A stretch of DNA of 64,000 bases, taken from the NCBI GenBank assembly GCA_951394045.1, contig OX595991.1, positions 3,038,001 to 3,102,000 on the forward strand. The letters are read 5' to 3'. This document shows positions 23,775 through 64,000 of this stretch, one piece after another. Origin of the DNA: Nitzschia sp. DOCU1. Lineage: Eukaryota > Bacillariophyta > Bacillariophyceae > Bacillariales > Bacillariaceae. Position numbers and translations under genes: made by a program. The notes below the pieces were generated by a model, which was not told the DNA's origin, did not search any database, and was given only the letters and a program-made list of their open reading frames with translations. The stretch's first letter is position 1. Each line of letters begins with the position of its first letter.

Positions 23775-24304
23775 TGGATCGATAGACAGTGTTTGTTGCC
23801 TCTTAATCAATACGAAATGAGTATGGAAGGTTGCGACTTCGAGGAAACAGTTGGGTGAAACGACGACGAAGACGGAAAGTCGCCTTGCTCGTGCGTGGCC
23901 GACGTCAGACGTCAGCGACGCGCAGGGAGCGCGTCAACCTTGATCTAATACCCCCTGTCATACGGAAAGTTTTCTCCTTCTCAGTCTGTCTCTCTAGTAG
24001 TAGCTAGTACACAGTAGCATTGATGCTTTACCTTTTTGATACAGTAGGCTACATGGAATAGCCTTCATAACTCTCAAGAGACTGGAAATCCTCTTGTTGG
24101 TGATGCAAACTGACGAGTGTAATACTTCCTCCTCGCTGGCTCCGGCCAGATGAGATCTTGACTTTTCCCACTGAACAGGGAGACGACCTGGCAGTGAGCC
24201 ATCTCGGCTTTGAATATTTGAGTACTATGGGTCCGTAAAGCTATCCAAGCCGCCACCCACAAGAACACGGGGCGCAAGGTACCGACAACGTATCATTGGG
24301 ACGA

Positions 24305-25105: not shown

Positions 25106-25660
25106 TAGATCAATAGATATTACTTCTTTCCTAGAAATTAGTGAGTACAACGCTGCAACCAAAGCATGGACTAAAGTTGGTGAAACAGCAAACGTCTCGA
25201 GAAAAAGTGGGCCTCGTAACACGTCACTCGTCATCGGCGCGCAGGGACTGCGGCACCGACGTCACAAAATGACCAATTCGATAACTCGTACTTACTATGG
25301 GAAGGATGATCGAACCCTCGACCCCCCAGTCTTTCTCTCTCTAGTATCGTAGCTAGTAGATAGACAGTAGCATCTACGCTTATTATATAGAGCAAGTTAA
25401 AGGGGGATGCCTTCATAGCTCTTAAGCGACCAGGACTCATATGTGCCAGTACTTCTTGGAGATGCAAACCGACGCGTAGAACCAACAATGATTCGCTCGC
25501 TAGAATGGTACCGGCAAGATGAGATCTTGACTTCTACCACTGAAGGAGGAGATTACCTAGCCGTGAGCTATTTCAGCTTTGAATCCCACTGGCCATTGAA
25601 CCTGGCCCACCAGTGCCCTCGAAACAACGCACATTGGTACCACCCCACGGAGTAGTATCC

Positions 25661-36108: not shown

Positions 36109-36420
36109 TGTTCAAATACGGTAAATCTGGTGGTCAAGGATCGCTCTTCACGACGTCATCAGCGTGATGACGCAATCGTATAGGGAAGTGCAACGTTCAC
36201 TCCCGAACAGCCACGTGCTGACTCCAACGAGGAGAAGGCATGGAGATGGCACTAAGTACGATACAAATCAGAGTACATCAGCTGTCTATCTCGACAGCAT
36301 ACATTTAGTTTACGCACTGTTAGTGCTCATAAGTTTCAGAATCAACACACTGCAACACAACCACAAGTTATTTGAGCTCTTTTTACGATTAGCCAGTACC
36401 GGTCATCGTAGATTTCAACA
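36109..36420 (+). repeat. 5' LTR, 312 bp
   Basis: Starts TGTTCAAATACGG and ends GATTTCAACA. I found no difference from the 3' LTR when comparing by eye. It should contain the element's promoter. Confidence 0.93.
36154..36172. promoter_or_regulatory. palindromic CRE/bZIP-like site in LTR
   Basis: CGTCATCA-GCG-TGATGACG is a perfect 8-bp inverted repeat around three bases, built from two CGTCA/TGACG half sites of the kind bZIP/CREB factors bind. It is duplicated in the 3' LTR at 42127-42145. A role in stress-responsive transcription is inference. Confidence 0.5.
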
Positions 36421-36477
36421 CGCTTCCTCTGCGCATAAGAGACATACAAGTTCTTCAACAGTTAATCATCAGCTACA

Positions 36478-37836: not shown

Positions 37837-40800
37837 TTCCTCAATCTGCCGACGAGGTTACAAGATACCCTGGCCGTATGGACATACATTGGCCTGGCGT
37901 ACTTGATAATCTACATATGGGTGACGGTCTATGCCGACAGCTGCTACTACTACTATCCTAAGAAGCAACGCTTTCGGGCTAAGTTAACTCGCTATTTAGC
38001 ATATCTACGAGCCTGGAAAATCGCGATTTGGACTAGTTTTAGGCTGCGAATGAAGCACAGTCAACAAAACAAGGAAGTGAGGCGACGACGGGACATCGCC
38101 AGCAAGTACCGACGCAACGACATGCCGCTACAATGTCACGTCTGCGGCAGCATCAACTTTGCAGCGCCGCGAACACTACAAGTCTGGCAAGTCCTATTGG
38201 CAATGGAGACGATGACGAACAAAGGAGAACGGTTAGCAGTGATCGATACAGACTCGACAACCCTTGGGATCGACAATCGCGCGACGGCTTACCTATCGGG
38301 GTTCATCGAGGACTTCCCCGGTGAACTACAGCCAACAAATCGGATCGTGAACGGGTTCATGGGAGCCAAGGCCACGAATGTGTCAACAGGAACAGCAAAA
38401 GTAAGGTTAGAAGCCGACGGCGGCGACGTGCACGACTTCACTCTGCACGATTCCTACTACGTACCTGGATGCGGAATACGCCTCTTCAGCCCACAACATT
38501 GGGCCCAACAAATGAAAAGACAACATCGCGGCCCAGCCCAATCGACAACCACACACGACCGCGTCATCCTCAGCTCCAAAGACTTCACCAAAACGATCCC
38601 ACTCGATCCGGTCACCAACGTGGCGACGTGTCGGACCGCCCCCGGATACTCCAAGTTTGCGGCGTTTTGTGCGGAGGCAGGATTCGACGATGACGGCGAC
38701 GACGTCCTGGCATTCGATGCACAGGTTATCTCCGACGATGAAGATGACGATCCTGCGGATTTCTCGAATATAGGCAACGATAATGTTAGCGACGACGTTA
38801 ACAACAACATACGCGACGACACAGAAAACTTACTCGGACCAACGCCTGCTCCACCTGCCAATCCTGCGAGGATAGTGGATGAAACAGAGGTTGAGAGAGA
38901 GGAAAGGAAGCTCGAGACCGAATTACTGACTTACCATCTGCGCTTCGCCCATGTATCCTTTCGGAAACTACAGATCATGGCGCGATACTCCATCATCCCA
39001 AGGCGACTGGCCAAATGTCGCGTTCCCGTATGTGCAGCCTGCATGTTCGGTAAAGCAACAAAGCGTCAGTGGAGGCAGAAGGCACCAATCAACAAGGACG
39101 AAGCTTACTTACCAACAAAACCGGGTGAAGTGGTCTCGGTCGACCAAATGAAGTCCCCAACACCGGGGTTCATCGCGCAGATGACAGGTATCTTGACGAC
39201 GAAGCGATACGTGTATGCAACTGTCTACGTGGACAGCTACTCATCGTTCGGCTACGTCTACCTGCAGAAGACCGCTAGTGCTGACGAGACGATCGAGGGC
39301 AAGCATGCATTCGAACGTCTGTGCCAGCAAAACGGTTTCAGAGTCCAACATTATCATGCCGACAATGGAATTTTCAAGGCCAACAAATGGGTGCTTGACT
39401 GCCACAAATGCGAGCAAGGTCTCTCATTCGCGGGAGTCAACGCGCATCACCAGAACGGACAGGCGGAAGCTCGAATCAGACGACTACAAGAGCTGACGCG
39501 CACACAACTGACCTACGCAAAACGACAATGGCCACAGGAGATCTCGGCGAACCTCTGGCCATACGCCCTCCGAATTGCGAACGATGCAAACAACGCGACA
39601 CCCAATCTGGCCGACAAACCTGACTACCGCTCCCCAGCGGAGCTCTTCTACAGTACGAAGGTCTCCACCAACGCCAAGCGCTGGCAACACTTCGGTTGTC
39701 CAGTGTACGTGTTGGACAGGAACTTGCAACAGAACAAACCGCTCCACAAGTGGGTCAGTAGAGCGAGGGTTGGGGTGTACCTGGGACGATCACCACACCA
39801 CTCTCGTTCTATTGCGCTGGTGCTGGACATCAAGACGGGACTTGTGTCTCCACAGTTCCACATCAAGATGGACACAATGTTTGACACCATAGCACAACTC
39901 TACCAGTCGGTGGAGAGTGCTAGCACACAACAATCGCTATGGCAAATCAAGGCGGGGTTTGTTCAGCAGTCACAAGCGAATGTGACAGCACCCAAGCAGG
40001 GCAATGCGACAACCACAGCTTCGAAAAGAAAACAGGTCACTACACAAAACTCTCAGACAAGAGAGGGCACCCAAGTTCCAGAGGGAGCCTACGTGGCACC
40101 ACCTGAACCACGCACAGTCGACATGTCCCCGAAGACAGACAGGGACAGCGGTTCTCCCACCGTTACAGAAGGGAACACACCCGGGAATGGCAAACAACAG
40201 CCATCTACACAACAACACCAGTCTCCACGAATGCAATCAGAATCTGGTACGGCCACCAGGCGATCGCAGAGACGCGTGCAACCTGCGCAACGACTGATAG
40301 AAGCAATGACAGCGGAACTCACTACGCAAAGTGATGTTCCTGGCGAAGTGTTCTCCTTCCAGGCGATGTTCCCAAGCGACGGCAGGTCCATCAACGAGGA
40401 CCTGAACCCACTCTATGCCTACAAAGCCAATGCAGACCCCGACACTCTGTATCTTCACGAGGCTCAGAGGGAGAGCGACTGGGAACAGTTCGGCGAAGCA
40501 ATGGAACTGGAGATCAAGCAACAGGTCGACATGGGAGTCTACACCATCATGTTACTCACCGACATACCAACGGGGACTACCGTGCTACCTGCAGTGTGGC
40601 AACTGCGCCGCAAGCGCGACATAAGGACGGGCGCAATCAAGAAATACAAGGCACGATGCAATATCGACGGTTCTCGAATGCGACACGGCGAGCACTACGA
40701 TCAGACGTATGCTCCGGTTGCCGGATGGCCCTCGATAAGGCTACTGCTGGCGCTGGTTCTACTCTTCAATTGGCGAACGGTCCAACTCGACTACGTGCTC

Positions 40801-42051
40801 GCGTACCCACACGCGCCAGCAGACAGGGACCTCTACATGAAGCTACCAAAGGGATTCACCCTCGACGGCGTTGACGACCCAAGCAAGTATTGTCTACGAG
40901 TCAACCGCAACCTCTATGGGGGAAAAAGCGCCTCTCGTATATGGTATCAATATCTGAGGAAACGGCTCATCGACAAGTGCCATTTCGTGGTGTCCAAGCA
41001 CGACGAGTGTGTATTCTACAAGGGCAACATGATCTACGTCCTCTACACCGACGACTCAATCTTAGCCGGTCCTGACCAGGCAGAGATCGAGCGAACGATA
41101 CAGGAAATGAGAGACGCAAACCTCAACATTACCATTGAGGGAGATCTCACGGACTTTCTCGGAGTCAACATCGATCGGAAAGAAGACGGAACGATACACC
41201 TGACGCAACCCAAGCTAATCGAACAGGTGATATCGGACCTACGCATGCAGTATGACAATGTACGAACCAAGGACATCCCCATGGCGTCCAGCAGGCTACT
41301 GTCACGTCACCTGAGCTCCACACCACACGACGACTCGTTCCACTACAGGAGTGTCATCGGCAAGCTCAACTACGTCGAGCGCGGATCAAGGCCAGACATC
41401 GCATACGCAGTGCACCAGTGTGCACGGTTCTCCATCGACCCAAAGAAAGAACACGGCGATGCAATACGCTGGATCACACGTTACCTGCTCGGCACACGAG
41501 ACAAAGGAATAATCTTCAAGGCAGATCCTTCGAAGGGATTGGAGGTATTCGTCGACGCCGACTTCGCGGGGAACTGGGACAAGGAACTGGCAGGATTCGA
41601 CAAGGACACTGCTCGCTCCAGACACGGCTACATCATCTGCTACGCAGGAGTGCCAGTCACATGGAAATCACAGCTACAGCAAGAGATCGCTCTGTCTAGC
41701 TGCGAATCGGAGATCACAGGACTCTCGTACGCTTTGCGAGAGGCTATACCGATCATTGAGCTTCTGAGGGAGATGCAAGGACTCGGATTCAATGTGCACT
41801 TCGACAAGGCACACATCACTTGCAACGTCTACGAAGACAACATGGGCGCCATTGAGATCGCCCGTACTCCCAAAGCAAGACCAAGAACAAAGCATATCAA
41901 CAATCGTCTATTTCACTTCTACGACTATGTGGAGAGAGGCGACATCGAGATACATCATATCCGATCCGAAGATCAACCTGCCGATATCCTGACCAAAGCA
42001 TTAAGCGAGGATCTCTTCGTCAAACACAGACAGGTCATCATGGGATGGTAA
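37837..42051 (+). CDS. pol: copia Pol: protease, integrase, reverse transcriptase, RNase H
   Basis: The frame is open from directly after the gag TGA to TAA at 42049. There is no ATG near its beginning, so expression probably needs readthrough of that TGA. Order: protease-like region (AVIDTDSTTLGIDNRAT); integrase zinc finger (HLRFAHVSF ... CAACMFGK) and core with D, D, E in VSVDQMKS, YHADNGIF and GQAEARIRR; a Gln/Ser/Thr-rich linker; reverse transcriptase with YAPVAGWPSIRLLLALVL and the active site YTDDS; RNase H with VFVDADFAG, ALSSCESEI and EDNMGAIEIA. All catalytic motifs look intact, so the element may be active. Confidence 0.92.
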   Translation, partial: FLNLPTRLQDTLAVWTYIGLAYLIIYIWVTVYADSCYYYYPKKQRFRAKLTRYLAYLRAWKIAIWTSFRLRMKHSQQNKEVRRRRDIASKYRRNDMPLQCHVCGSINFAAPRTLQVWQVLLAMETMTNKGERLAVIDTDSTTLGIDNRATAYLSGFIEDFPGELQPTNRIVNGFMGAKATNVSTGTAKVRLEADGGDVHDFTLHDSYYVPGCGIRLFSPQHWAQQMKRQHRGPAQSTTTHDRVILSSKDFTKTIPLDPVTNVATCRTAPGYSKFAAFCAEAGFDDDGDDVLAFDAQVISDDEDDDPADFSNIGNDNVSDDVNNNIRDDTENLLGPTPAPPANPARIVDETEVEREERKLETELLTYHLRFAHVSFRKLQIMARYSIIPRRLAKCRVPVCAACMFGKATKRQWRQKAPINKDEAYLPTKPGEVVSVDQMKSPTPGFIAQMTGILTTKRYVYATVYVDSYSSFGYVYLQKTASADETIEGKHAFERLCQQNGFRVQHYHADNGIFKANKWVLDCHKCEQGLSFAGVNAHHQNGQAEARIRRLQELTRTQLTYAKRQWPQEISANLWPYALRIANDANNATPNLADKPDYRSPAELFYSTKVSTNAKRWQHFGCPVYVLDRNLQQNKPLHKWVSRARVGVYLGRSPHHSRSIALVLDIKTGLVSPQFHIKMDTMFDTIAQLYQSVESASTQQSLWQIKAGFVQQSQANVTAPKQGNATTTASKRKQVTTQNSQTREGTQVPEGAYVAPPEPRTVDMSPKTDRDSGSPTVTEGNTPGNGKQQPSTQQHQSPRMQSESGTATRRSQRRVQPAQRLIEAMTAELTTQSDVPGEVFSFQAMFPSDGRSINEDLNPLYAYKANADPDTLYLHEAQRESDWEQFGEAMELEIKQQVDMGVYTIMLLTDIPTGTTVLPAVWQLRRKRDIRTGAIKKYKARCNIDGSRMRHGEHYDQTYAPVAGWPSIRLLLALVLLFNWRTVQLDYVLAYPHAPADRDLYMKLPKGFTLDGVDDPSKYCLRVNRNLYGGKSASRIWYQYLRKRLIDKCHFVVSKHDECVFYKGNMIYVLYTDDSILAGPDQAEIERTIQEMRDANLNITIEGDLTDFLGVNIDRKEDGTIHLTQPKLIEQVISDLRMQYDNVRTKDIPMASSRLLSRHLSSTPHDDSFHYRSVIGKLNYVERGSRPDIAYAVHQCARFSIDPKKEHGDAIRWITRYLLGTRDKGIIFKADPSKGLEVFVDADFAGNWDKELAGFDKDTARSRHGYIICYAGVPVTWKSQLQQEIALSSCESEITGLSYALREAIPIIELLREMQGLGFNVHFDKAHITCNVYEDNMGAIEIARTPKARPRTKHINNRLFHFYDYVERGDIEIHHIRSEDQPADILTKALSEDLFVKHRQVIMGW

Positions 42052-42081
42052 CACTCGCTCGAGTCAATCCTTGAGAGGGAG

Positions 42082-42393
42082 TGTTCAAATACGGTAAATC
42101 TGGTGGTCAAGGATCGCTCTTCACGACGTCATCAGCGTGATGACGCAATCGTATAGGGAAGTGCAACGTTCACTCCCGAACAGCCACGTGCTGACTCCAA
42201 CGAGGAGAAGGCATGGAGATGGCACTAAGTACGATACAAATCAGAGTACATCAGCTGTCTATCTCGACAGCATACATTTAGTTTACGCACTGTTAGTGCT
42301 CATAAGTTTCAGAATCAACACACTGCAACACAACCACAAGTTATTTGAGCTCTTTTTACGATTAGCCAGTACCGGTCATCGTAGATTTCAACA
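42082..42393 (+). repeat. 3' LTR, 312 bp
   Basis: Same sequence as the 5' LTR, preceded by the polypurine tract at about 42073-42081 and followed by GTCGAC, then the resumed transposase frame. Confidence 0.93.
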
Positions 42394-43397
42394 GTCGACC
42401 ACTCCATTCCAGAAGGTCTCGTCATCTTTACAGAAGATGAACTCCTCTACCTTGGTTTGCGTCTCATCCGTTATAAATGTCGTCGTATCAACCGAGCTCG
42501 GAAGGCTACGAACATCAAGCGCTTCCGCAAGAATTTCGGTGGTGTGCCCGATGCCGTCAACGCAATGTGGGAAGATCTGCAAACGACAGATGATCACGAG
42601 GCATTCCTTGAGGAGAAGGATCGGGACATCAAGAAGTTCTTGATGGCTCTCTACCAAATCAAGAAGTACCCGACCGAAGAGGACCGGGAACGCATCTTTG
42701 ACCTTTCCCATGCATGGAGCCGGGAAAAGGTATGGTTCTACCTGGAGAAGATCCAGGCGCTGAAGAAACAAAAGATCGTTTGGCCTGAAAATAACGAAGA
42801 CATATGGGTATGCACTGTCGACGGTACTCATTGCTGGGTCCAAGAACAGGCGCACCCGGAATTCTCGCTGGATCCCGAGTACTTCTCGCACAAACACAAC
42901 AAATGTGGCATCGTGTATGAGCTCGCTATAAGCCTACGAGAGCAGCGACTTGTTTGGATGAACGGTGGTTTCAAGGCCGGCCGAAACGATGTTAGTATCT
43001 TTACTGGTGAAAATGGACTCAAGGCCTTGCTGGAGCAGACCGGCAAAATGGCGATTGGCGACGGCGGCTACCAGGGGCACGAAGAACAGTGTTCCACGCC
43101 CAATTCGATTGACCCCCGACCCGTACGAAAGTTCAAAAGTAGAGCTTTGAAACGACACGAAAAGTTCAATGGATATACCAAGAGATATGATTGCCTCAAG
43201 GGGCGATTCCGTCATAGTCCCAGGCGTTTCAACACTTGCTTTGAGGCGGTCTGTGTGATGGTGCAGTATCAGCTTGATGTCGGACAAGATTACTTGTATG
43301 ATATTGTTGTAGAAGATATTCTATACGACGACTAATGTTGTAATAGAATAACTAATCATTAAATAGATCAAGGTCTTTTAATAACTAACTAGTTCAT

Positions 43398-50625: not shown

Positions 50626-51261
50626 GGTGTTCTTATTACGGTCGAGAAATGACGATCGCCGATAGTAGCGGCATGTCCTCACGGCTCATCGCCGGTCTCG
50701 CCGCCTATTATTTCATGTTACGGCGACTGCTGCACCAGAAGGAAAGCTGAGGTAGTCGGGAAAAGAAACGAAGGTTCCATCCGTTCGGATAGCCAAGACG
50801 GGCATTCGCACGTAGAGGAAACGGCGTCAGGAAGAAGAATGAATCGAATCAATCATCAATTTGTAGGGAGCTCGGCCTTCCGTGTATGGTTCGGCACGGC
50901 ATAGGGTAGAGTAAGAGTGAGGGAAATGTTTTTACCACGTGTAGGGTAACCACCATACAGATGTCAATGTCGCTGCCACGTGGAGGCGTATTGGTGGTAG
51001 AAGGTGTGGCCGGCGAAGATGTTTAGGGTCGGTGGAACTGATTTCGTGTGCAGCTTGAACAGAACGAAGTGATTGGAGGAGAAAAATTCGAAGGTAATAC
51101 AGGACGAATAATATATAAGTCGAAGGGCGTAAAAAAAGTGGTCGTTGCGCCAGAAGGAGGTGTTTGCAGCAAAATCCAAGATTTGCGAGTATTAATGCGC
51201 AAAGGTTGCCATAGAAAGAAGAAGTCAAAGATTTGTTGCAGCTTTGAAATTGAAAGAAACC
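50626..51261. other. intergenic; boundary of accessory block
   Basis: The 636 bases separate the fasciclin gene promoter (minus) from the next plus-strand gene. A 264-codon open frame on the minus strand over 50932-51726 is antisense to coding sequence and not supported. Confidence 0.4.
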
Positions 51262-52160
51262 ATGGACAACCCTGATGAATTGCTGAAGCAGTTTTTCCAA
51301 CGGAACAAGGCGATCCCGGAGGAGAAGTCGATGGAGGATGCAATGGCCGACAACGCGGAAAAGTTGGTAAAGGAAGCGTATGACAGGGCGCAGAAGTATG
51401 ATTTCTTGGCCGACGTGGCTGTGGAAAAGGGAGTACCGAGTCTGCACGTTGAGGAATTGGCAAAAGCGGAGAAGTATGAAGATCTTATTAAAGAGGTAGA
51501 GAAAGTGCGTGAGGAATCTTCGGTTTCCGGCAGTTATCCCGTTGATTTTCCGGAGTATCAGCAGGATAAGCGGCGAATGCTGGAAGCTGTGCAGATGTTG
51601 AACCATTGGATGGTTGATATCCTGTACATGGTTGATGCTAGTTTGGGGCAAATCCAGAACTTCTGGTCGGCTATTGCGGTCTTTACAGGTAAGTAAAAGA
51701 GGATTGATGCGGGAATAGTATGACAAATACTAATTCAGTGTTGAAGATTACCTTTTGAACGAGAATAAGAAGGCTGAAGTTAATTTTGCGCAGGACTTGA
51801 TTGTGATGAAATTGTTGGTTAATGCGGTTAGAAACGATAAAGAGAATGTGAGACTCGATCCGGATATGTCGCGCAAAGGAGTTTTTGGAGAGCTCTTCGA
51901 GTTTAATTCTGCATTGTTTCAAAGACATGACGTGTGGAATGAGTTTGAGATCGCTTCGCCGAAGAATACAAAGAAAGATACGTCCGGGGTGGAGGTTATG
52001 TTGTTTCTTTGGTACTTGGCGTATTCGAATGTGGTTGATACAAAGGCAGCGCTGGATAATCAGATGTAAGTAACCGATGGAGATGTATTTTGACTCATGG
52101 AAAGGTTGCTAAACTTCTTGCAGTAAACCTGCATTTAAAATGAATATTATCCCATGTTGA
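51262..52160 (+). CDS. coiled-coil protein of unknown function, upstream part (3 exons, 260 aa)
   Basis: The start is MDNPDELLKQFFQRN at 51262. Exons 51262-51688, 51747-52065 and 52124-52160 join in phase with GTAAGT donors; the 51746 acceptor (TTGAAG) is the only one that keeps the frame. The protein is strongly charged and helical (EELAKAEKYEDLIKEVEKV), then has a globular part (VFGELFEFNSALFQRHDVW). It ends at TGA 52158, which overlaps the ATG of the next frame by seven bases. The next frame continues in similar style (MLKQLGLVLASACPDQ), so the two were probably one gene and a one-base shift near 52140-52155 separates them. Confidence 0.5.
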
Positions 52161-53822
52161 AACAGCTAGGGTTGGTGCTGGCATCGGCTTGCCCCGACCA
52201 AAGTCTGGTAGGAATCGTTGAGTTGCACAAAATTTGCAGTAATCAGGAGCATTTTCTGAATTATAATCTGCAAGCGAAGCGAGGAAGAAAACATCGCAAT
52301 GAAGGAAGTCCTCCAAAGCCGGAGCAACAGCGTGGCATCCAAACAGTATCGATCTTGTTGGTCCACTGTGCTTTGCTCCCGTTGATGAACCGGATCGAAA
52401 AGAAGAAAGCTGATAAAGCTTTTATCGACAATCCCAAGATCTTTTTCATGCGTTTGCAGCATTTGTCGAAGGGCAAGGCCATCATGTCAAAGATTGGTTA
52501 TGACATTGCAGTTCGCAATTGGATGAAAGAATGTGACAAGGAGAAGATTCTTCAAGTTGATTCAAAAGCCCCTGCTGTCGTTGGAAAGGGAAAACGCGGA
52601 ATGTTGTCGGATGGACAAACGGTTTCGGAAATGAAGAACGGCATTTTGGAGTTGAAAGAGGTGGTGCAAGTTTCGATGGAGAAGGTCGAGAAAATTCCTG
52701 GCGCATTGGCGACAATTTATGACGAATGGAAGGAAGTTCTCATTCGTATGTCGAATAAAGTTGATTCTTTGACGGAATCTGTGGAGAAGTTGGATACGAA
52801 AGTTTCCTTGTTGGAAAAGGTCTTGGAAGCAAACGTCTCTAAGGAAAAGATGGAAAAGATTATGTTCATGTTGGAGTATATTTTCCGAAAGTAAGTGTGA
52901 TGGTGGAAGTGTCGAAGTACTGGAACTATCTAACATTTTGAATTTGTTCATAGCGATGTGGTTAATGATGCTTTCGTAGACGAAGCCAAGAAGATTGAAG
53001 GAAAAGCCGAGAAGATTATTGCAGAGGTAATGGCAGGCGGTCAGCAACTTGGAGGGTTGAAGGAGGATGATAATTGCCAAAGTTTGCAAAAGGACAAAGG
53101 GATAGTGCTTAGAGATAAGGAAACAGGGCGCTTTGAATATATCGAGGAAAGGCCGAAAGAAACTGTTGCAGTGATGAAAAACACTGAGGAGACCGTGGCA
53201 AAAGCACAGAAGGCTTCAACCTTTGTCAGTAAGTGGACGGTGAACTGGGATATTGTGCGTAATTGTCAACTAACCGTTTTACGAAATCGTCAGTCAGCAG
53301 TCCAACCAAGGAGACTTTTGCCGCGGTTGAGAATGTTGAGGAGAAACCCGTGGCAAAAGCGCAGAAGATGGATTTGGATTCGAATGTTGCTTATTTGAAG
53401 CAGGGTGGAAGTTTTGTCAGTAAGTAGAACGGGAACTGTGACATTGTGTTTAATTGTCAACTAACCCTTTTACGAAATCGTCAGTCGGCAGTGCAACGAA
53501 GAAGACTCTTGGAGTGGATGACAATGTTGAGACGGAAGAAGGGAAACCAAGCCCCAAGACCGCTGCTGCGAAGAAACCCGTGTATAAGGGTGGTGATAGT
53601 AGTCCAAGCGTTGAGTCCATTGAAGATGATAGCGGTGATGATGAGGAAAAGGGTAGTGCCAAGGGATTCACTTTGAATTTCAAGGCGAAAGGCGGTGGAG
53701 AAGGTGATGAGGAAAAAAAAGCAGCTGTTGACAAGCCGAAAGATGATGCTGGGCAAAAGAAAAGCCGCCCCATTCGCCAAGCTGCTGGAAAGCAGACCAA
53801 AAAGAGGCGTCGAAATGCCTAA
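52154..53822 (+). CDS. coiled-coil, basic C-terminus protein, downstream part (4 exons, 491 aa)
   Basis: Exons 52154-52890, 52954-53228, 53294-53419 and 53485-53822 join in phase, all with GTAAGT donors. A helical region with LELKEVVQVSMEKVEKIPGA and heptad-like VDSLTESVEKLDTKVSLLEK predicts a coiled coil around residues 190-245. The C-terminus is an alternating acidic/basic tail ending KKSRPIRQAAGKQTKKRRRN, a likely nuclear signal. Exons 3 and 4 begin with related peptides (SSPTKETFAAVEN, GSATKKTLGVDDN), and the introns before them are near copies: an exon-intron duplication. It is likely the 3' part of the same ancestral gene as 51262-52160. Function unknown. Confidence 0.55.
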
Positions 53823-53956
53823 AAATTCTATAATTATAATACTATAGTGACTATTTGATGTTAAGAGTGTTTGCTTTGGTAGTAATAGAAAAGATGACAC
53901 AATTTCTTTAGAGGTTAAGGTTCTTAAGGGTGGTATCTAATGAGGAAATGTCGTTT

Positions 53957-54625
53957 CTACCAGCCCAAGCGTCGAGCAAAGTCAGTGACGTGTTCGTTCT
54001 TCCACATGGTCTCAGCAAGACCAGGATAGCGTTCTTTGAACGCGTCGTTCCACTCCGCTTCATCGAAACAATGCTGAACGATGAAGTCGATGTCCGCATT
54101 CATGAGGAAATCGTCCATAGAGATGGGAGGATCAGCAGCGTAATCCGTTTTATCGACGACGTCGACGTCTTGAGGGGGATACTTAGAGAAACGGGAATCC
54201 ATCACGAAACTGCGGAAAGCGTTGAGTCCAGCTTGCCTAGTCTCCGGGGTGGTTTCGCCGGTTTTGGGCTGACGAAGAAAAACTTTGCGAGCGTACTTTT
54301 CTCCTGGGTTAGTGAGTTCTCCATCGTTGGTGTTAGGGCGACGGCGGTTCAGAGTTCGAATGAAGTTGCATTCGTCGATGAGGGAATGACTTTCCTCGAA
54401 CTCTTGTCGCAAATACTTCGCAAGTCCCGCAGTGTAGCCGTCTTCGTTGTCGGACTTTTCGTACAAATAGATCTCGAACGGAATATCTTCCGCAAAGCTG
54501 TAGCAAACAACACGCAAGTTAGATTTCTTCTGAGGCGTCAACAGAGGTTTCTTGGACTTCATAGGGCTTGCCCGTTTCACGGGCTCTTTGTCCTTGGCTT
54601 TACGCGGGGTGGCAGGCTTCGACAT
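53957..54625 (-). CDS. orphan basic-N-terminus protein, 222 aa
   Basis: The ATG at 54625 opens MSKPATPRKAKDKEPVKRAS, a Lys/Pro-rich histone-tail-like N-terminus (about 30 residues) that probably marks a nuclear protein. A globular region follows, with VVCYSFAEDIPFEIYLYEKS, GYTAGLAKYLRQEFEE and a Trp-containing end (ETMWKNEHVTDFARRLGW). No family is recognised. It converges on the coiled-coil gene (134 bp between stops) and lies at the left edge of the block with GCGTAAAA motifs, so it may be cargo of the same mobile element. Confidence 0.5.
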   Translation of the reverse strand: MSKPATPRKAKDKEPVKRASPMKSKKPLLTPQKKSNLRVVCYSFAEDIPFEIYLYEKSDNEDGYTAGLAKYLRQEFEESHSLIDECNFIRTLNRRRPNTNDGELTNPGEKYARKVFLRQPKTGETTPETRQAGLNAFRSFVMDSRFSKYPPQDVDVVDKTDYAADPPISMDDFLMNADIDFIVQHCFDEAEWNDAFKERYPGLAETMWKNEHVTDFARRLGW

Positions 54626-55036
54626 GATGAGTAGCTTTCAATTCAGGATAGAGCAAGAAATGTGTGAGCTTGTGAAAATGGAAATGAAACCAGGGTAAGC
54701 GCGTAAAGCGACAAAACATGATTATCGCCAATGAAGCATTGCAAACAAAGGATGGTTGTGGTCGCTAAAGATACAATAGGTAAAGTCAATAAACATTCTG
54801 TTGACGTATAGAGGATAATTGAATGTTGCCACTAATGTAGTATGTGATTGGATCGAAGTTTGTACGTGAACCGTTGGGCGCGCAAAATGTTAACGCGTAA
54901 AATAGTTAGTTACCCATGCGACATCGCTAATACGAATAAAATTATTTTAGAAAGCGTAAAATGATATTGTCGCTTATTGGCGATTGTTGATATCAATATA
55001 CTAGGCAGAGTATTAACGGGAACGGATTGTCGAAAA
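54626..55036. other. AT-rich spacer with GCGTAAAA motifs
   Basis: The 411 bases contain GCGTAAAG at 54701, GCGCAAAAT near 54880, GCGTAAAAT at 54895 and again at 54954. No gene is supported. It may contain the left end of the Helitron-like block, but no end could be defined. Confidence 0.45.
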
Positions 55037-55762
55037 ATGCATTGTCACAAATGGGAGTTTCCCTTTTTGGGAAAATTGTCGAAGATGGACGTCAACCGCA
55101 ATAACGACCCTGAATACTTTGACCGCAATAATGACCCTGAAAATGTTGATTGGGAAGACAGAATGGAAGAAGACGCTGAATTGATTTTGCACCGTTTTAC
55201 GTATCCGGTTTCTATGATTCGGTACCAATTGGTGGAACACCAATTACTTCGTCATGATATTTGGCTTCAAATGGTGAAAGCGACAGAGCATGAGAACATT
55301 CGAACTTTGCGCCAGGAAATTATTGAACAGGGTTTGAACGAATGGTGGGAGTATCGTGCATTCGTCGATAACGAACCTTTATTCGATTGGGACCGCCATC
55401 ATTACGTCCTTAACAGATTCGAGAAAATGTTGATGAATGATTCAGAAAGACCCGTGACGCGTTCTACCATAAAATGGTTCCGCAAGCGCTCGATGGAGTT
55501 CGTGTTTCTCCACGTGGACCCGGATGGTACATGCCGATTCAACGATCGTGCCTATTGGGATTTCATTTGGGATCGTGAGGTGCAAGGTTGGGATGCGTTG
55601 GCGGCGTCAGCAAAAGACCCTGCAATTAAAGAATGGTATCAGCAATTGGCCGATAGGTCGCGACGGTACAAAATTGAAATGCAAACTGAGATCGAAGGTG
55701 GTGATGCAGTCGAATATGACATGTCATCAAGTAAAGACAGTCCCATTTCGCATTTGCTTTAG
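55037..55762 (+). CDS. orphan protein, 241 aa
   Basis: The first ATG in frame is 55037 (MHCHKWEFPFLGKLSKMD); open sequence upstream has none. The protein is rich in Trp, Arg and acidic residues and mostly helical (AELILHRFTYPVSMIRYQLV, RHDIWLQMVKATEHENI, DWDRHHYVLNRFEKML). Near the N-terminus RNNDPEYFDRNNDPENVDWE contains a short tandem repeat. No known family. It sits between GCGTAAAA motif clusters, upstream of the truncated helicase gene, and could be Helitron cargo. Confidence 0.5.
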   Translation: MHCHKWEFPFLGKLSKMDVNRNNDPEYFDRNNDPENVDWEDRMEEDAELILHRFTYPVSMIRYQLVEHQLLRHDIWLQMVKATEHENIRTLRQEIIEQGLNEWWEYRAFVDNEPLFDWDRHHYVLNRFEKMLMNDSERPVTRSTIKWFRKRSMEFVFLHVDPDGTCRFNDRAYWDFIWDREVQGWDALAASAKDPAIKEWYQQLADRSRRYKIEMQTEIEGGDAVEYDMSSSKDSPISHLL

Positions 55763-55866
55763 AGTCATTGAATCATGCAAGTTAGAAAATTAAAGAATTG
55801 TAATAGTTTCAAAAGTTGATGTGTCAAAGTAGGTGTGGCATGGTCTCGTCTGAGCTACCACGCCGT

Positions 55867-56141
55867 GCGTAAAGCGTCAATGGAGACTTTACGCCAACAT
55901 TGGAATGCTGCCAAGAGATGTAAGGGCTACAAATGCGGTGCGTAAGCCCCCAACTTTATTTTACACCATTGGTAGTGGAGAGATAACATTCGAGCTCCCA
56001 CATTTGTGGGTAACGCGCAAAATTGCATTTTACGCCGTTGGGTGTGTGGGTGATGCGTGTTGCTGCCGCCCGGTAGCGTAAAACAGCATTTTACGCCGTT
56101 CGTGGGGCTGCGGCAAGGTAGCGTAAAATGGCATTTTACGC
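55867..56141. repeat. four GCGTAAAA hairpins
   Basis: Inverted repeats stand at 55867-55894 (GCGTAAAG...CTTTACGC), 56015-56035 (one mismatch), 56076-56096 (GCGTAAAA-CAGCA-TTTTACGC) and 56121-56141 (GCGTAAAAT-GGC-ATTTTACGC). Another stands at 63231-63257, beyond the helicase gene. Confidence 0.8.
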
Positions 56142-56281
56142 CATTCACGCTTTTGGTTACCGCGCGTTGTAAATGTTTATCGCCGATTGGCGAACGAAGT
56201 TAGAAATTAAGGTGATACAAATCGCTGTTGGTTTTACGACATTATCATAGACTGTCAGAATCGATTGAATACAAACGAAAT

Positions 56282-56780
56282 ATGAATAGGAACAACAACG
56301 AAATGGCGGCGTCTGAGACAGACAACAAGTACCAACGAGCAATTGAATTACTGGCTGCAACTACTGTCCAAGTATATTCGAATGCAGCAAATGCATTCTA
56401 TGAGTGCAGCGCGTTGCAAGGTCTTGAAAACGTTTTAGTTGAGTGTTTTACAAGCAATACACGTTGCACAATGCTTATGAAGTCCTTTGCCGGTGGAGGA
56501 AAATGTAAGTGTCGCGTTGGTTTGGGATGAAAAAAGAAGTTTTTCATTCACTCACAATTTTGCGACAGCACGGTTCCTTGAATCCTTGGTGGTCTATGCA
56601 CAACGTTTAGTGGAGAGTATTGAATGTACATTTTCATCGAACGAAGTTAAGGTTATAGCTGGGACAAGTGCAGCTGCAAGTGAGATTTCCGGAGGGACAA
56701 TTCATAGGCTGCTCGACATTGTGGCAAATGCAAACGTTTCGAACGACGATGTTGACTCTAGTTACTACGCAATTGACTAA
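56282..56780 (+). pseudogene. truncated duplicate of the Helitron PIF1-helicase P-loop region (2 exons, 144 aa)
   Basis: Exons 56282-56504 and 56569-56780 join over a 64-nt intron in exactly the same place and phase as the big helicase gene: after GGK, completing SFAGGGKS/RFLESLVVYA (big gene: GPAGAGKS/RILESLMAYA). The product continues with AGTSAAASEISGGTIHRLL, the counterpart of TGAAASEILGDTTHRLF, and stops at YYAID, where the full helicase has the Walker B YIIDEIS. It thus keeps a P-loop (weakened, Pro-Ala changed) but loses all other helicase motifs. The frame is intact, so it may still be expressed as a small protein. Confidence 0.7.
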
Positions 56781-56855
56781 ACCATATAGAACGTCTAAAT
56801 GGTACATCGAAAGAAATAGCAAAGTAACCTAATGGTTAATTTAGAGTCTGTGATG

Positions 56856-57245
56856 TTACCCACGTTTTTCCCTGATGCGGCGCACAAGCTGCATGTCCTT
56901 AGTCATCAACGTTATGCGTTTGGCATGGTTGGCACACTTGTTGGCTTCATGAAGCAGCTCCGTTAGATGATCTTCCGAAGCATATTGAAGAGCTAACATT
57001 GCTCTTTCTTGGAAACGCAATTCCTTTCCAAGTTGATTGCGAGTTATATCTCGCACAACCCTCTGGAAGGCCAATTTAGGTATGAGCAGGTTCGTTGATC
57101 GTTGGTAATGACGGATTTCCCGAAGTGCAATTGTTCCTGGTCTTACTCGACGACGTCGCAGAAGATTTTGATTCGTCGGTGAAAGGGTTCGACGCAAAAG
57201 GTGCTGAGTGTCTCTGCGAGATGGAATTGGTTTGATCCTTGCCAT
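56856..57245 (-). CDS. divergent histone H3 variant, CENH3-like (129 aa, intronless)
   Basis: From ATG 57245, residues about 33-129 match the H3 core: RPGTIALREIRHYQRSTNLL, then KLAFQRVVRDI, ELRFQERAMLALQYASEDHL and CANHAKRITLMTKDMQLV, ending RRIREKRG. Against canonical H3 (recalled) the loop between RDI and LRF is one residue longer (TRNQLGKE), a feature of centromeric CENP-A/CENH3. The N-terminal tail is Arg-rich, with none of the K4, K9, K14 or K27 contexts of H3. The Cys of the CAxHAKR segment is kept, unlike most CENP-A. It is head to head with the Helitron Rep gene. It would form nucleosomes or a specialised H3-H4 unit. Confidence 0.88.
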   Translation of the reverse strand: MARIKPIPSRRDTQHLLRRTLSPTNQNLLRRRRVRPGTIALREIRHYQRSTNLLIPKLAFQRVVRDITRNQLGKELRFQERAMLALQYASEDHLTELLHEANKCANHAKRITLMTKDMQLVRRIREKRG

Positions 57246-57478
57246 AGTGAATATGTGCGTAATGGTAATACGTTGACGAAATTACCTGTGTTTTGGCGAT
57301 AATAGTAGCGTGATTGACGGCGTAAAACTATCGCCAGTACTGTATTTGCGCAGGTTTTTAGCGACGGAGCATTCGCCTACGTTCGCCAAGAAATTAGTAA
57401 GTGCAAACACAAAGATGTAGTGCCAAACATTGGAGAATGAAAAAAAGGCATAGTTGAACTAAACCGGTGTGTTAAACA
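57246..57478. promoter_or_regulatory. shared promoter region of histone H3 variant and Helitron Rep
   Basis: Only 233 bases separate the two divergent start codons, so one region must drive both. It contains a GGCGTAAAAC motif near 57319. No TATA box is claimed. Confidence 0.5.
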
Positions 57479-60400
57479 ATGGCGCAATACCCGTCGCATG
57501 AAGAAGAAAAAGCATTAGTGCGAGACTTTGAAAATGCTATCCATTCTTGCGTATTCGTCGATATAATGGGTAATCGGCATCCTTTATGTTGTTCTGTTTG
57601 CGATACAATGGCAACAGTGGAAAATAGATGCGAATTCATCCCAATAGAGCAGTTAGCGAAATACGCAGAACAATGTCGAATGCAACGGGAGAGGATAGCA
57701 TCCGTTTATCCATCTCCATTAGTAAAGCATTATAAAGTGCAGCATTGTCCGACACTAACACCATATGTATTATCACCAAGAACAGTGATTAACGTCGAAG
57801 CCGATAGTGTGGCTGTCTGTGAAAGTTGCCAAAAGCACTTTGAGAGTAACGGCGAGAAACCACCGTCACGTTGCTATCCCCCACCAGGAGCAATCATAAT
57901 GGCCTACATGATTGGCGAACCTCCACCAGTTTTAACATGTTTGAACACAATCGAATTGGCACTTGTGAGTACAGCACGAACCTTCTGTCAGAGTTGGTTC
58001 TTTTTTGGGGGTTGCCATCAACATATTCAGGGATGGCATACTATATACGAAAATGATCCAGTGTCTATAGTTGGACACATTGCCAACTTAACTAATGCCG
58101 GATTGCAAGGACAACTGCTGGTGGTTCTCTGTGGTCCGTTTACAACGACTCAAAAGGCAGAGCTCATGCGGCAAACGTCCATCAATGCAAAAAAAGTTAT
58201 ACGCGCTTTCAAATGGCTTAAGAAACACAATCGTCTATACCACGGTATAAAAATTCCCTCCATGGAAGAACTGCCTGTACCTCAGGTCATTGCGCACGAC
58301 TGGTAAGTTGACATTGATCATGGCTGACACGGTTGTATTGTAGTTGGTTCTCACATGGACAAAAGGGAGGAAGCAGTTGCTGGAGGAAACGAAACATTGG
58401 AGAACCGTTTGCAAATGACAATTGTTTTACCAAACACTCATGCACTAAAGGAAACCAATGGTGGATTTTCAACACAAGAAGAATTCCGCAAATTTGTAAT
58501 AGAACGATTTCGCAATGGAAAGTACAACGCTGTCATACATTCCCGTCCAAGTGCCAACATCCTAGTAGATCATAACGGACAAGGAATTGTTCGAGCATTC
58601 CCGCTGTTATTCCCATATGGGCACTCCGGATTACCCTGCGATCCGGCAGTAGACAAAGTTATCACTGCGTTTTCCCCAACTAAGCGAATTCGTCGACCAT
58701 TTACGCGGACGCTACAAACCGTGCTGCGTAAATGGTTGCAATTACGCGTCCCAACATTTCAAACACCCCTGTTCAACTTGGTCGTGTTCAACGTTCTTAT
58801 GAAACAGACTATTTACAAGAACGTGTGTCTGCGGGCAAACTTTACCCACTCATCTGGGAACACATTAGCACACGCAGTTGGAGGAATGACAATACAAGAG
58901 TTGCAACGCGGAATTGCAGCTGTGCGTGCAGGTCATTCTTCCCAATACTCAACACGGACCAATGCCCAGTTTCTGAACTCAATTCATGCTACTTGCAGTA
59001 AATTGCCGCATACAAATGAAGCTGCACGAGAGGCGCGAAGTCAATATTTTGCGTATCTAATCCATTTTGGACTTCCGGCAATTTTCCTCACCGTTACTCC
59101 TGACGACGAACGCAACTATCGCATCACGCTTTACGCATTACCGCCGGATTCGCGCTTTCAATACGAGCCACCATCAGCAGCGGAAACAATGTCGGACGAT
59201 CTTATTCTCAAAAGATTTCGAATGCGCCAACAGATACGAACCGAATATCCTGGGTTTTGTGCTGAAGAATATGACCGTATCATTACTGCCGTCATCGAAC
59301 ATCTTTTACAGTGGAACTGTGAGAAAAAAGAGTCAAAAGGCATCGGGATATGTGGGAAATTAGAAGCTTGGTGTTTGGCAACAGAAGAGCAAGGGCGTAA
59401 AACATTGCATGGTCATTTCTTGTTATTTGTGGAGGGGTGGCCCGAACTTATGAAGAATGCCCAGGACATGCGTGTTGACAAAAGGACACGCAGTAGAGCA
59501 AGACAAACCATCTTGGAGTTTTGCGACAGAATATGCAGTGCTCAATTATTCCGGGAAGAGGATCTAGAGGATGGAATTTTCCAAACTCATCCCGTTTTTG
59601 CTCATGATGAATGTTCTTCCCAACGCATGTACAAGCGGCGACGCCGAGATGAAGCTGGAAACATGGTAGTACGTCACCGTCGTCAGAACGAGTACAAAAT
59701 TGATGCTGTTGACAAGAAGACATTGCGTGCCATGCGACACAAGCGCAAATGCCAAGAAATCGAAGGTCAACTTGCAACTTGTAAGAAATGTGGAGCAAAA
59801 CTCAAGTTGGATGATGTGGTCACAAAAGCAGTGCAGTTTCTTATGCAATCGGATCTTTACAGTTATCAAGATGACAACAAGAGATTAGATCATTACGTCT
59901 TCAACAATCAAATGGATGTTGGATGGTGGGAGCGCAGTGACAATGACATTGCAAAACGAGGATTCATGAATAATGTTATCTCCAACATTCACCGATACCT
60001 TCATGCCAGAAGATGTTTTCTGAAGGGATGCGAATGTTGCTTCAACTTGCCTGAGCAACCCAACGATTCTAGCCGTCTTGTGACAAAAGGAACAAACGAT
60101 GATTGGTGTGATTTGTATGGACGTCGCAATCCGCGCTGTTTGTTTATCTACGAACCTGCTCGACGTTTATAGGATGTATTCATGAATGTTCATTCTCCAT
60201 TGTTGACAACGTCCCTAGGTTACAATACAAATGTCAGGGCAGGGATCAATGGACCGGCAGTCTTCTACACTACAAGCTACAACGTCAAGCCGACGCAAAA
60301 AGAAGATAACGCCGATTTCAAACTCGTTTCTGACACAATGGCAAGGATGATTGAACAACGTTTGCAAGAAACGGAGAGTGACATTTCGCCACATGAAGAG

Positions 60401-63177
60401 GGATTCAGAAGAATGTTGGGAAGCATTTATTCCCATTGTCGCGCACATATATGTGCAGCCCCCATGGCACACTATTTGTCAATACGGGGGTCAAGGTTTC
60501 GTTTCTCCCATGAAACGGTGAACATTCCTGTTCATTCAGCAGAGTCTTGGATGTTGAAGAAAAAGACTGGTGGAGTTTTCCGACTTGTAGATGGCAAACT
60601 TGCATTCTATCTACGACCAATGCATTACATCTATCGCGGGGAAAAGTTTCACTACATGTCATTCTTCCAGTTCTTTCAACAAACGGAAGTTTTGTGTCTA
60701 AGTGTCGCAACAAGTGTGTCACACGTAGTATACGAATTTGATGAAGGACATCCATTACGCAGTACGCATGCAATCATTGAGCACCCTCAACCAAAGGTGG
60801 GAGTCATTCCCTGGTCATTTCTGACAAGTACGAATGAGCTCGGTGGGTCCCTGTTGGATTCGACACTTGTCAACCCCGATTCGCAATACTATGAAAAGAG
60901 AGACACATACTGCCGTCGGTTTCTTCTGTTGTTCAAACCATTTTGGAAATTTGAAGAACTTTTGGGAGAACACGCATCCTATCAAGAAGCATTTCGAGCT
61001 AACTTATCCATCATCAATGATGAGGTCAAAAGAATTGCGAACCACATTCAAGACATTCACAATTCCCTACGAGTTCGATTACCTACTAACCCATTGACAG
61101 ATGAAACCACCTTGGAAGAAGAAGAAGAACCCACCGTTATTGCGCGTGACGATGATTTTGATGCGGCCGCGAACGAAGCCCATCTGCGTAATGCAATTGC
61201 AGCGGAGAGTGATCTATTCGGAACATCGTATGGATTGAACAATGGAGCTTATCGCGAAGTTGCACCCAGTTTTGTCAGCAATGACGAAGTATCAAGTGCA
61301 ATCATGATTTCGCCACATTCGACGCAATATACGCCTTTACGCACAGTGATCGCTTATGCGCCGCCCCCCCAATCCGTCACCAGAAATACTACCGATTCAG
61401 ATGATCCAAAACGACGGATTGTTTGTTCTGTGGCGACACTAAACACGTTGGTGTCGTCCACGGATGGAACTTCGTACGAAACAGTAAATCAACCAAAATA
61501 CGCCACGGGATCGAAAGACTCAATCATTGCATGGGGCAGACGCGACAAACTAGACGAGAAGCAACAACGAGCATTTGAAGTGTTGGCTGCAACCTATGTG
61601 AAGACATTTTACGATGATGCGACTGGTTTTGGTGATTTGCTTGCATTCGAAGGGCTGAAAGAACTCATTGCTAGACACAATAGAAGCAACGCACCTTTGG
61701 TAATGTTCATCACTGGTCCAGCTGGTGCCGGAAAATGTAAGTATTGTGTGACCGGATTGATTGATTTGCGAAAACATTGAGTTCGTAGACTAACGACTTT
61801 GCTATAGCGCGCATTCTTGAATCCTTGATGGCGTATGCAAAAGCTTTCAGTGCCAATATTGATCACCAATTCACGTCAGATACCATTCGTGTTAGCGCAA
61901 TGACGGGTGCAGCAGCAAGTGAGATTCTGGGCGACACAACACATCGATTGTTTGGACTTTGGAAAGATCGGGACGTTACGAATGAGGATATTCAAAGAGC
62001 AGCGGATACCCGTCTTTACATCATTGATGAGATTTCTTTCGCTCATATGGGAAATTTGGCTCGGATTTCAGAGCGGTGCAAAGGAGAATCTCAATGCCAA
62101 GAATATCCTTATGGAAGGATACCGATTCTTTTTCTTGGCGACTTTTGTCAACTCGAAGGTTTCGGAGGAACACCAATTTACAAAGGACCGCCAAGTCCCA
62201 TCTGGGAACTTGCATTGAATGTGATGGTCGAACTGGATGGTACGCATCGCTACAAGGATGATCCAGAGCTTGGGGAAGCAATGGCACAAGCACGGGATGG
62301 GGACCCAACCAAACTAAGAGAAATCCTTGCCACTCGTGATATTGAGAACAACGACTTGGAGATTCCTCAAGATCTTACTGCTCGATATGTGGTTTACACC
62401 AATCGAAAAAGGTCCGCGATTAACGCAAACGTGTTTCGATGCTACTTGGAGAGGTTTCATTATGAAGACGAAGCTATGCCAATACCAAATGGCGCAATCA
62501 TCATTCGGAGTTCCGGAAATTGGGGTGATTCCAAAATACAGCTTGATGCAAAAACGCAACACTACCTTTGGGAAAATTGCTCCGATGCGCACGTTAAACA
62601 ACAATCCTACAAAGTTGATCCGTTCCTTGGGTTGTTCCAAGGTTGCGAGTTGATGGTGAGCGACAACATTGATGTATCAAAAGGCATTGCCAATGGCACA
62701 TGCTGCACGTTTGATCACATCGTTTTGAAACCAGATGCACAATTGACACCAATGAAAGTACATGGACGTTGGGTCAATACCGTTGACATCAATGATGTGA
62801 ATCTTATCAAACTGAAATACAACGAAAAGCGTGATCTTCGATTGGATGACACTTTTGATCTTCTACCTGCCAACAAGAAATTGACAGTACAAATGCCGTT
62901 CGAAGGGCGCATCCTGAAAGCGCAAATGGATTTAAAACATGTTCCGGCGGTGCTAAACTACGCAACAACTGTGCATAAACTCCAGGGTAAATCGATGGAC
63001 AGCTTGGTGATAATGGATTGGAGCCGTACCCGCAATTGGGCCTATGTGGTTCTTTCACGTGTACGAACGCGACACGGTTTGTTTCTTATGAAACCTATGC
63101 CAGAAGATATTTCATTTACCCCAGATCCTGATTACTTGGCTATGATGGAGCGTTTGAGAAATAGATTGAATCATTGA
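57479..63177 (+). pseudogene. Helitron Rep-helicase polyprotein gene with one in-frame TAG (3 exons)
   Basis: Exons 57479-58302, 58366-61736 and 61808-63177 give 1,854 codons, broken only by TAG at 60170-60172. The first 270 residues fit the DUF6570-type N-terminus (LTCLNTIELALVSTARTF, then GGCHQHIQGW). Rep follows, with LFVEG after the H-x-H of RKTLHGHFLL and, beyond the TAG, the paired tyrosines GPAVFYTTSYNVKPTQKED. The C-terminal PIF1-like helicase has Walker A GPAGAGKS, Walker B YIIDEIS, FLGDFCQLEG, HKLQGKSMDSL and VVLSRVRT. Rep nicks and joins DNA for rolling-circle transposition; the helicase unwinds. The TAG separates H-x-H from the tyrosines, so activity needs readthrough. The first intron's AAAAG acceptor is uncertain. 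Confidence 0.85.
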
Positions 63178-64000
63178 GTAATGACAAATTTAAGCACTAT
63201 AGCATATTCACCCGAATGTAAAGTGCAAAGGCGTAAAAGTTGATAAACATTTTGCGCCGTCGAGGTTTGCATTTTTCCAGATCATCGATGCGCAAAAGCA
63301 AATGGTAGTTTACCCAGATGTTTTACGCATATGCCTTAAATTGTGTCGCAACCGTTTCGAATGGATGTCCAATATGACACTCAAGACATGATTTTCTCTA
63401 TTCATCACAAATAACCGTCAAAATAGGCACTAATATTGACGAAAATACCGTTTGGCGGTGTTCTGCGACTTTCTATGATTGAATTCCAATTCGCGCTGGC
63501 CGGTCAAAAATCGCTCTAAATAGGGCATATTTGAATTTCGAAAAGGACCCGGAAAACTGAGAAAAGAGCGGGAAAGAGCGAGGGGCCTCGGATCCAAGAC
63601 CGACGCAAGGTTTGTGGTCGCCCAAACTTGGTCGCAAGCGCAAGGATGACTCCCATAAGACGCGTTTAGTAAATATTGGCCAACCGTCGGCCACGTAGGT
63701 AGTACTTGGTAGGGTCTTGACAGAACTACGCTGTTTCCGTCCAAAAGAGCCCTCTTTTCAAGTTTTTTTCGTAATAAGCTGCTAGGGTTCCGGAATAAAC
63801 TGCTAGGGTCTTGACACAAAGGCGCCGGAAATGCGAAATCACAAAATATATCGCCAGAACCTGCCTCGTTTAGCCACCAAAAATCCCGCAAATCCAAAAA
63901 CTCTTAACACGAGACATCGCGCGAAAAGCTTCCAAAACAGCCCAAAAGAGGGGGGTTGAGCATTTTGCAACTAGATTTGGCTATAGAATGACTACGGTCC
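63178..64000. other. downstream noncoding region with hairpin and short repeats
   Basis: Contains a GCGTAAAA...TTTTGCGC hairpin (63231-63257), a TTTTACGC at 63319, and near 63710-63820 a repeated phrase (tagggtcttgaca, ctgctagggttcc, ctgctagggtcttgaca). A 155-codon minus frame at 63430-63897 has no domain-like features. The 3' end of the Helitron is probably here, but no CTRR-hairpin terminus was identified. Confidence 0.45.

Follow-up and report, generated by a model that had tools for sequence, protein, structure and literature searches.

The locus analysed here raises the question of why a histone H3 gene should stand next to the Rep gene of a Helitron, and what such a gene could do for a transposon. 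The window, i.e. the whole stretch of 64,000 nucleotides that was analysed, is part of contig C7 of the 52-Mb assembly (63 contigs) of the diatom Nitzschia sp. DOCU1. The initial annotation had described an intact, intronless H3 with a diverged tail and a loop 1 exceeding that of canonical H3 by one residue, 233 bp from the start of the Rep gene, and all of this holds. The open reading frame (56856-57245, minus strand) encodes 129 amino acids and matches the Pfam family Histone (PF00125, E 2.7e-35) as well as solved H3 chains (approximately 110 bits over residues 18-128). Its tail is diverged from the host canonical H3, its loop 1 equals the loop of that protein plus one residue, and 233 bp were measured to the first ATG of the Rep-helicase gene (RepHel).

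The Rep gene proposed at this place is also real. Its first exon (57479..58302, plus strand, read by eye) is conserved in six copies and contains DUF6570 (E 2.7e-12); it is followed by an apparent GT-AG intron, likewise read by eye, with candidate acceptors at 58343 or 58365. The Rep part (58355..60172, plus strand) carries the HUH motif LHGH and matches Helitron_like_N (PF14214, E 4.6e-15), both Pfam matches being above the cut-offs. In the window copy it ends at an in-frame TAG (60170-60172), where the frame is open in the other five copies (920-1,159 codons). The middle part of RepHel up to Walker A (60182..61780, plus strand) forms a single frame with Rep in the other copies and is followed by an apparent intron (by eye) and a PIF1-like helicase part (61828..63177, plus strand), which comes next in all six copies and whose matches in the window (AAA_30, 5.8e-5; PIF1, 0.04) are below the curated Pfam cut-offs. 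No AP endonuclease domain was matched by Pfam in the RepHel parts of the window. An external protein search with Rep gave 84 matches, the best-scoring of which reached 44% over 98% of the query.

Both genes are part of a Helitron-like element of 12.7 kb (50860..63592, plus strand), six copies of which were found on six different contigs (C1, C5, C6, C7, i.e. the window, C10 and C12). In a pairwise DNA comparison of the six copies the ends were identical in position, while the outer flanks were unrelated. The assignment of one A to the left or right end is ambiguous; if it belongs to the host, the element sits between A (50859) and T (63593). Canonical Helitron1 elements have the ends 5'-TC and CTRR-3'. 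These are not matched by the ends found here, (A)TT...CGG(A), and the element is therefore termed 'Helitron-like'. A palindromic CGAGGCCTCG-like sequence with a weak predicted fold, a candidate hairpin, is located at the 3' end. The 5' A is common to all six copies, and the base 3' of the element is T in five of them and C in the C1 copy. For three of the six copies, a search with joined flanks retrieved uninterrupted junction matches at other places of the genome; for the C1 copy, two uninterrupted sites read ...CATTTAACACA..., without target duplication. A deletion derivative (C3:1244647-1248938) keeps both ends and has neither H3 nor Rep, and the matches of further partial copies (C13:1237k, C8:823k, C8:1825k and C9:114k) do not span the H3. 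With its unique flanks, common ends, an empty site without duplication and deleted derivatives, the element is mobile. The repeat entered by the C1 copy recurs approximately every 4.2 kb at C6:1141538-1150117 (three matches) and C8:1382362-1395140 (four matches), which suggests tandem arrays.

The gene order is common to all six copies: cargo ORFs, a truncated helicase copy, H3 on the minus strand and RepHel on the plus strand. The cargo ORFs, each found in six copies, encode putative proteins of 144 (51262..51696, plus strand), 246 (52154..52894, plus strand), 222 (53957..54625, minus strand) and 241 amino acids (55037..55762, plus strand). The 222-aa protein has a basic, SP/KK-rich N-terminus, is interrupted by one stop in C1 and gave a predicted structure too poor to use (mean pLDDT 40.9); the 241-aa ORF, detected by tblastn in the six copies, has no Pfam match and one stop in C12. 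A truncated duplicate of the helicase N-terminus (56282..56780, plus strand, apparently two exons) adjoins the H3. Partial tblastn matches to this region (orfC and/or helicase) were obtained in all six copies, with most of exon 1 deleted in C10 and frame-keeping indels between groups; the duplicate is possibly a regulator or a decoy. Damage to individual copies comprises a first-exon stop and a helicase gap in C10, a broken frame in the RepHel middle part of C5 and a repeated part of RepHel in C12, besides the stop in its ORF 55037. Elsewhere in the window, 36167-42643 was read by eye as a Copia-like retrotransposon, the flanking ORFs of which (36167 and 42140) have a common N-terminal sequence, as expected of LTRs. 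Two adjoining, very similar ORFs of 273 and 309 amino acids (22953-25234, by eye) are probably a tandem duplicate of a host gene.

The H3 was found head-to-head with RepHel, 218-234 bp apart, in all six copies that keep the 5' part of Rep. It had been suggested that the histone belongs to the mobile block and that other Helitron copies should be inspected for the same arrangement; its constant place in these copies bears this out and rules out a chance proximity of H3 and Rep. The divergent spacer between both genes (57246..57478) contains a conserved block around GCGTAAAA, which is exact in five of the six copies and reads GCGTGAAA in C10. With both strands counted, GCGTAAAA is present 6 to 12 times per copy across the six copies. 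In the window it occurs 12 times versus 1.86 expected (0 of 100 shuffles reached 12), and all 12 occurrences lie within the element; the first 50,858 bases are free of it. The flanking motifs that had been suggested to tie the H3 to the mobile block are thus represented by a sequence that is element-specific within the window, and the spacer block fits a joint regulation of H3 and RepHel. Some GCGTAAAA occurrences near 56076-56141 form back-to-back palindromes.

Of the 21 Rep matches in the genome, six belong to the copies described, one to a truncated member of the family (C13) and 14 to other subfamilies. In the genome-wide H3 search, no H3 match was located near these 14, nor near the truncated C13 member. 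RepHel pieces of two related subfamilies, examined in one copy each, are 43-58% identical to those of the window, and the HUH motif LHGH is present in the window family and in these two, termed the 53% and 49% families after their Rep matches. In the 49% family, which has no H3, two cargo ORFs have homologs, 53957 at 41% and 52154 at 28%, and a match of 26 residues to ORF 51262 (E 0.001) is doubtful; no homolog of the element cargo was found in the 53% family (one copy examined). Since related Rep subfamilies are without H3 and one of them has cargo homologs, the H3 seems to have been gained in, or specifically kept by, the Helitron lineage of the window. According to the initial annotation, Rep copies without any H3 neighbour, together with an orthologous H3 at a conserved host locus, would point to chance. 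H3-less Rep genes do exist, but they are those of other subfamilies and the truncated C13 member; the best H3 matches outside the six copies are 53% over the full length and up to 56% over the core.

The latter values result from a protein search of the genome, which gave at least 27 H3-like matches, counted as 26 loci since one gene is split by an insertion. Six loci belong to the window family (alike at 85-100%), 14 are further divergent H3s, several of which lie in repeats, and six are of host type (five canonical-type, one CENH3). Beyond the six copies, the best genome matches to the window H3 were L007 over the full length and at most 56% over the core. An external protein search with the window H3 gave 412 matches. 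Among the 120 listed, the sole close relative is P0001 (85%), located on a contig of 1,065 bases, and the next H3 match is at 54% (best 120 of 412). Searches of viral contigs for relatives of the H3 and of Rep returned 14 and 133 pattern matches, respectively, none of which was confirmed.

The H3 frame is intact in all six copies, each encoding 129 amino acids. Between the groups C7, C10, C12 and C1, C5, C6, dN/dS (Nei-Gojobori) was 0.17-0.24 in all nine pairs, at dS 0.33-0.50 and dN 0.08-0.09; Rep gave 0.08-0.10 in the same pairs at similar dS. Fisher tests with rounded counts in three H3 pairs resulted in p-values of 9e-7, 7e-6 and 4e-10. In the comparison of C7 with C12 no constraint is seen (2 synonymous and 9 nonsynonymous changes), within-group numbers being small. 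The values between the groups indicate that the H3 protein is kept by purifying selection across two subfamilies.

The designation 'centromere-type', given to this H3 in the initial annotation, is not supported by residues or tree, although the AU test leaves a kinship with CENH3 possible. Another gene (C6:3437072, read as two exons), which groups with named diatom proteins, is the likely CENH3 of the host. A search with its protein gave 7,910 matches; the 120 listed begin with long H3 proteins of multi-histone type from animals and plants, those matching over the full length at 64-72% include proteins of Pseudo-nitzschia australis, Fragilaria crotonensis and Cyclostephanos, and Seminavis, Nitzschia and Mayamaea gave strong matches to the core, the Mayamaea one being annotated as cse4. 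Of the 120 proteins listed in the external search with the window H3, 30 were used for the H3 trees. In a tree of 52 H3s, which omits L038 and six external sequences and adds eight CENH3-like proteins from the 120 listed for the host CENH3, the Helitron H3s and P0001 form one clade (100/99), nested in a clade of the genome's other divergent H3s (97/95; 93/81 with L038 included). Nine CENH3-like proteins form a separate clade (100/99), so that the H3/CENH3 tree proposed as a check places the element H3 outside of it; a joint clade of both was not rejected by the AU test (p 0.217). The H3s of the window family are nearest to the L007 H3 (93/87), but two long branches meet there. The residues at sites 45, 46, 68 and 84 are T, I, Q and F in the Helitron H3 and T, V, Q and F in the canonical H3, compared to E/Q, R/K, A and W in the nine CENH3s. 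The longer loop 1 does not discriminate, since it is common to the CENH3 of the genome and the divergent H3s aligned.

The 14 further divergent H3s may point to a second group of elements. Three copies of a repeat with an H3 nearby (C12:306626-321000, C17:53077-64487 and C1:82136-92912) have a common left end near C12:306626, the right bound of the C12 copy being provisional. They encode a giant protein with an open frame of approximately 2,500 codons, with a stop within the match in two of the three copies. The protein contains a P-loop region recognized by eye (Pfam AAA_19 only 0.074), a GIY-YIG domain at its end (PF01541, 2.5e-9), where Helentrons have an AP endonuclease, and HUH-like motifs (NLPHLHMLI in the relative beside L007 and, by eye, SHIHCIL in the C12 copy). 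It may represent a second Helitron-like Rep/helicase family, a reading weaker than that for the window family, since a genome search with PF14214 gave no match to the Rep part of the giant protein. A pairing of Helitron and GIY-YIG was not encountered among the papers listed (12 of 16) in a literature search of open-licence papers. Within 20 kb of a match to the giant protein lie 12 of the 14 further divergent H3 loci and none of the six host-type H3s. With 53 merged Rep loci, from which two small helicase fragments beside H3s had been excluded beforehand, 18 of all 20 divergent H3 loci are that close, again compared to 0 of 6 host-type genes. The cut-off of 20 kb was chosen after the distances had been seen, no more than 4.3% of the genome falls within this distance, and the binomial probabilities (4e-23 for 18/20, 3e-15 for 12/14) treat loci as independent, though family copies are not. 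The two divergent H3s away from Rep loci are both damaged (C7:2808636, stop; C1:3069209, truncated, with stop). Distances between H3 and giant Rep reach 16.6 kb and orientations vary; for several loci, both are likely to belong to a single element. For many of the giant copies, no H3 match is located in the vicinity, e.g. C1:5003010, C11:249138, C12:1984486, C12:1460565, C8:1746312, C15:1297303 and C7:1554900. One H3 of family b is split by an ORF of an LTR-type retrotransposon with RVT_1, RNase H and integrase (L041 2974-6999, C1:3802973-3806998).

The residues of the element H3 combine an intact core with an exceptional tail. The window copy agrees with the host canonical H3 in all nine residues considered of the H3-H3' four-helix bundle and in 13 of 16 DNA-contact residues. 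The exchanges R63 to P and R53 to H may alter the grip on DNA. K56 is replaced by R, and G is aligned at K79, with K one residue further on. The chaperone site is conserved at residues 88 and 90 and has R/K at 87 and M at 89. All six copies and P0001 have a single tail lysine, at position 4; K9, K27 and K36 are absent, and so is the ARKS context of K9 and K27. Loss of ARKS is general among the divergent H3 sequences compared. Other Helitron-associated H3s have more tail lysines, with a lysine at position 9 in L007, L009, c, L017 and L019, so that only the window family has lost nearly all of them.

These features might be explained by a long-maintained histone of the element acting against silencing, a role to which we would give an even chance. 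The H3 would be made together with RepHel from the divergent arrangement, pair with host H4 and form nucleosomes, be it on the element itself, on its new copies or on host chromatin. As the tail is without K9, K27, K36 and other lysines, nucleosomes with this K4-only tail could not bear H3K9 or H3K27 methylation, and the element would stay readable. In Phaeodactylum tricornutum, H3K9me2/3 and H3K27me3 are found mainly on transposable elements and H3K4me2 mainly on genes, according to the part of PMC4504042 drawn on here; such marks on the transposons of Phaeodactylum, together with the lost tail sites, favour an explanation by unmarkable nucleosomes. The divergent H3s near giant Rep-helicase matches (12 of 14 loci) provide a supporting parallel. 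On the other hand, acetylation sites are lost as well, which could hinder transcription, the C3 derivative with both ends and without H3 indicates that the histone is not needed in cis, other Rep subfamilies are multi-copy without a nearby H3 match, the near-complete lysine loss is confined to the window family and the C7-C12 pair is unconstrained. The broader reading, that rolling-circle transposons of this diatom evolved their own nucleosomal H3 clade as anti-silencing chromatin in at least two Helitron-like lineages, is tentative and in our judgement falls short of an even chance. The same H3 could instead coat the rolling-circle intermediate, i.e. new double-stranded circles would be packed with element H3-H4 for protection or integration, without a special role in silencing. 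Intact tetramer residues, the head-to-head position, which makes co-expression with RepHel possible, and the H3s near giant Rep proteins of another lineage agree with such a packaging role, which nevertheless appears unlikely: it leaves the loss of tail lysines unexplained, and the H3-less C3 derivative keeps both ends, though help in trans is possible.

A protein that loads the host H3-H4 chaperones or blocks H3 methyltransferases and so weakens the chromatin of the host as a whole, without lasting in nucleosomes, would be in line with the altered chaperone site and K56R; since all residues of the H3-H3' bundle, which are required in the tetramer, are kept, we regard this decoy function as improbable. 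Helitrons capture host genes. For a captured H3 useless to the element, a Culex Helentron with broken histone fragments (PMC4067079, in part) and the unconstrained C7-C12 pair could be cited. Six intact frames, a dN/dS near 0.2 between the groups, the lack of a close host parent (best match 53% full length) and the recurrence of Helitron-associated H3s in another element lineage make a mere passenger distinctly improbable. For an H3 that marks or enters centromeric chromatin and thereby directs insertion or segregation, the loop 1 extended as in the genome's CENH3 and the AU test could be cited; in view of the separate likely host CENH3, the canonical-like residues at the four diagnostic sites and the spread of the six copies over six contigs (contig locations only), targeting of centromeres is very improbable.

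A selected core histone encoded by a transposon would extend the contest between transposon and host into the nucleosome itself, and it could be tested whether silencing marks are evaded by altering the histone instead of the enzymes. A small protein with a one-lysine tail, in diatoms, where H3K9/K27 methylation of transposable elements has been mapped in one species, offers a setting for such tests. Transposons are also a possible origin of divergent eukaryotic H3 variants, given that 18 of 20 divergent loci in this genome are situated no more than 20 kb from the Rep gene of a transposon.

An intact, selected histone in a transposon was not found among the open-licence PMC papers listed in the literature searches. 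Accessory genes reported for rolling-circle elements include RPA, OTU protease and a SET domain (PMC4067079, PMC6431247), the latter as an ORF in a Phytophthora proto-Helentron (PMC4067079); a review of giant transposons (PMC6431247) names RPA, OTU protease and AP-endonuclease as additions to Helitrons and, in the part drawn on here, does not mention a histone. Like Helitrons and Helentrons, the element described here combines an HUH Rep with a PIF1-like helicase and accessory genes kept by the element, and, again as in these, the only empty site read is free of a target duplication and a T follows on the 3' side in five of six copies. It differs from the canonical Helitron in its terminal bases (not TC...CTRR), from Helentrons in having no AP-endonuclease match and from both in carrying, as an accessory gene, an intact core histone kept by purifying selection. 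Helentron-Cq-32A of Culex likewise carries and multiplies histone sequence; there, however, H4 and H15 fragments with stops, frameshifts and indels are found (Thomas et al. 2014, PMC4067079, in part), in contrast to the whole H3 conserved across subfamilies. A diverged tail, the loop 1 longer by one residue as in the genome's CENH3 and an ARxK-like start are common to the element H3 and CENH3/CENP-A, but the former is multi-copy and differs from the diatom CENH3s at sites 45, 46, 68 and 84, and the likely host CENH3 is separate. Selfish genomes with one core histone are also known from viruses: single viral H3s and the bracovirus H4 probably become part of host nucleosomes, and most modification sites are retained in four of six viral H3s, as stated in the part of a review drawn on here (PMC9145170), whereas the H3 of this element belongs to a transposon and retains one tail lysine.
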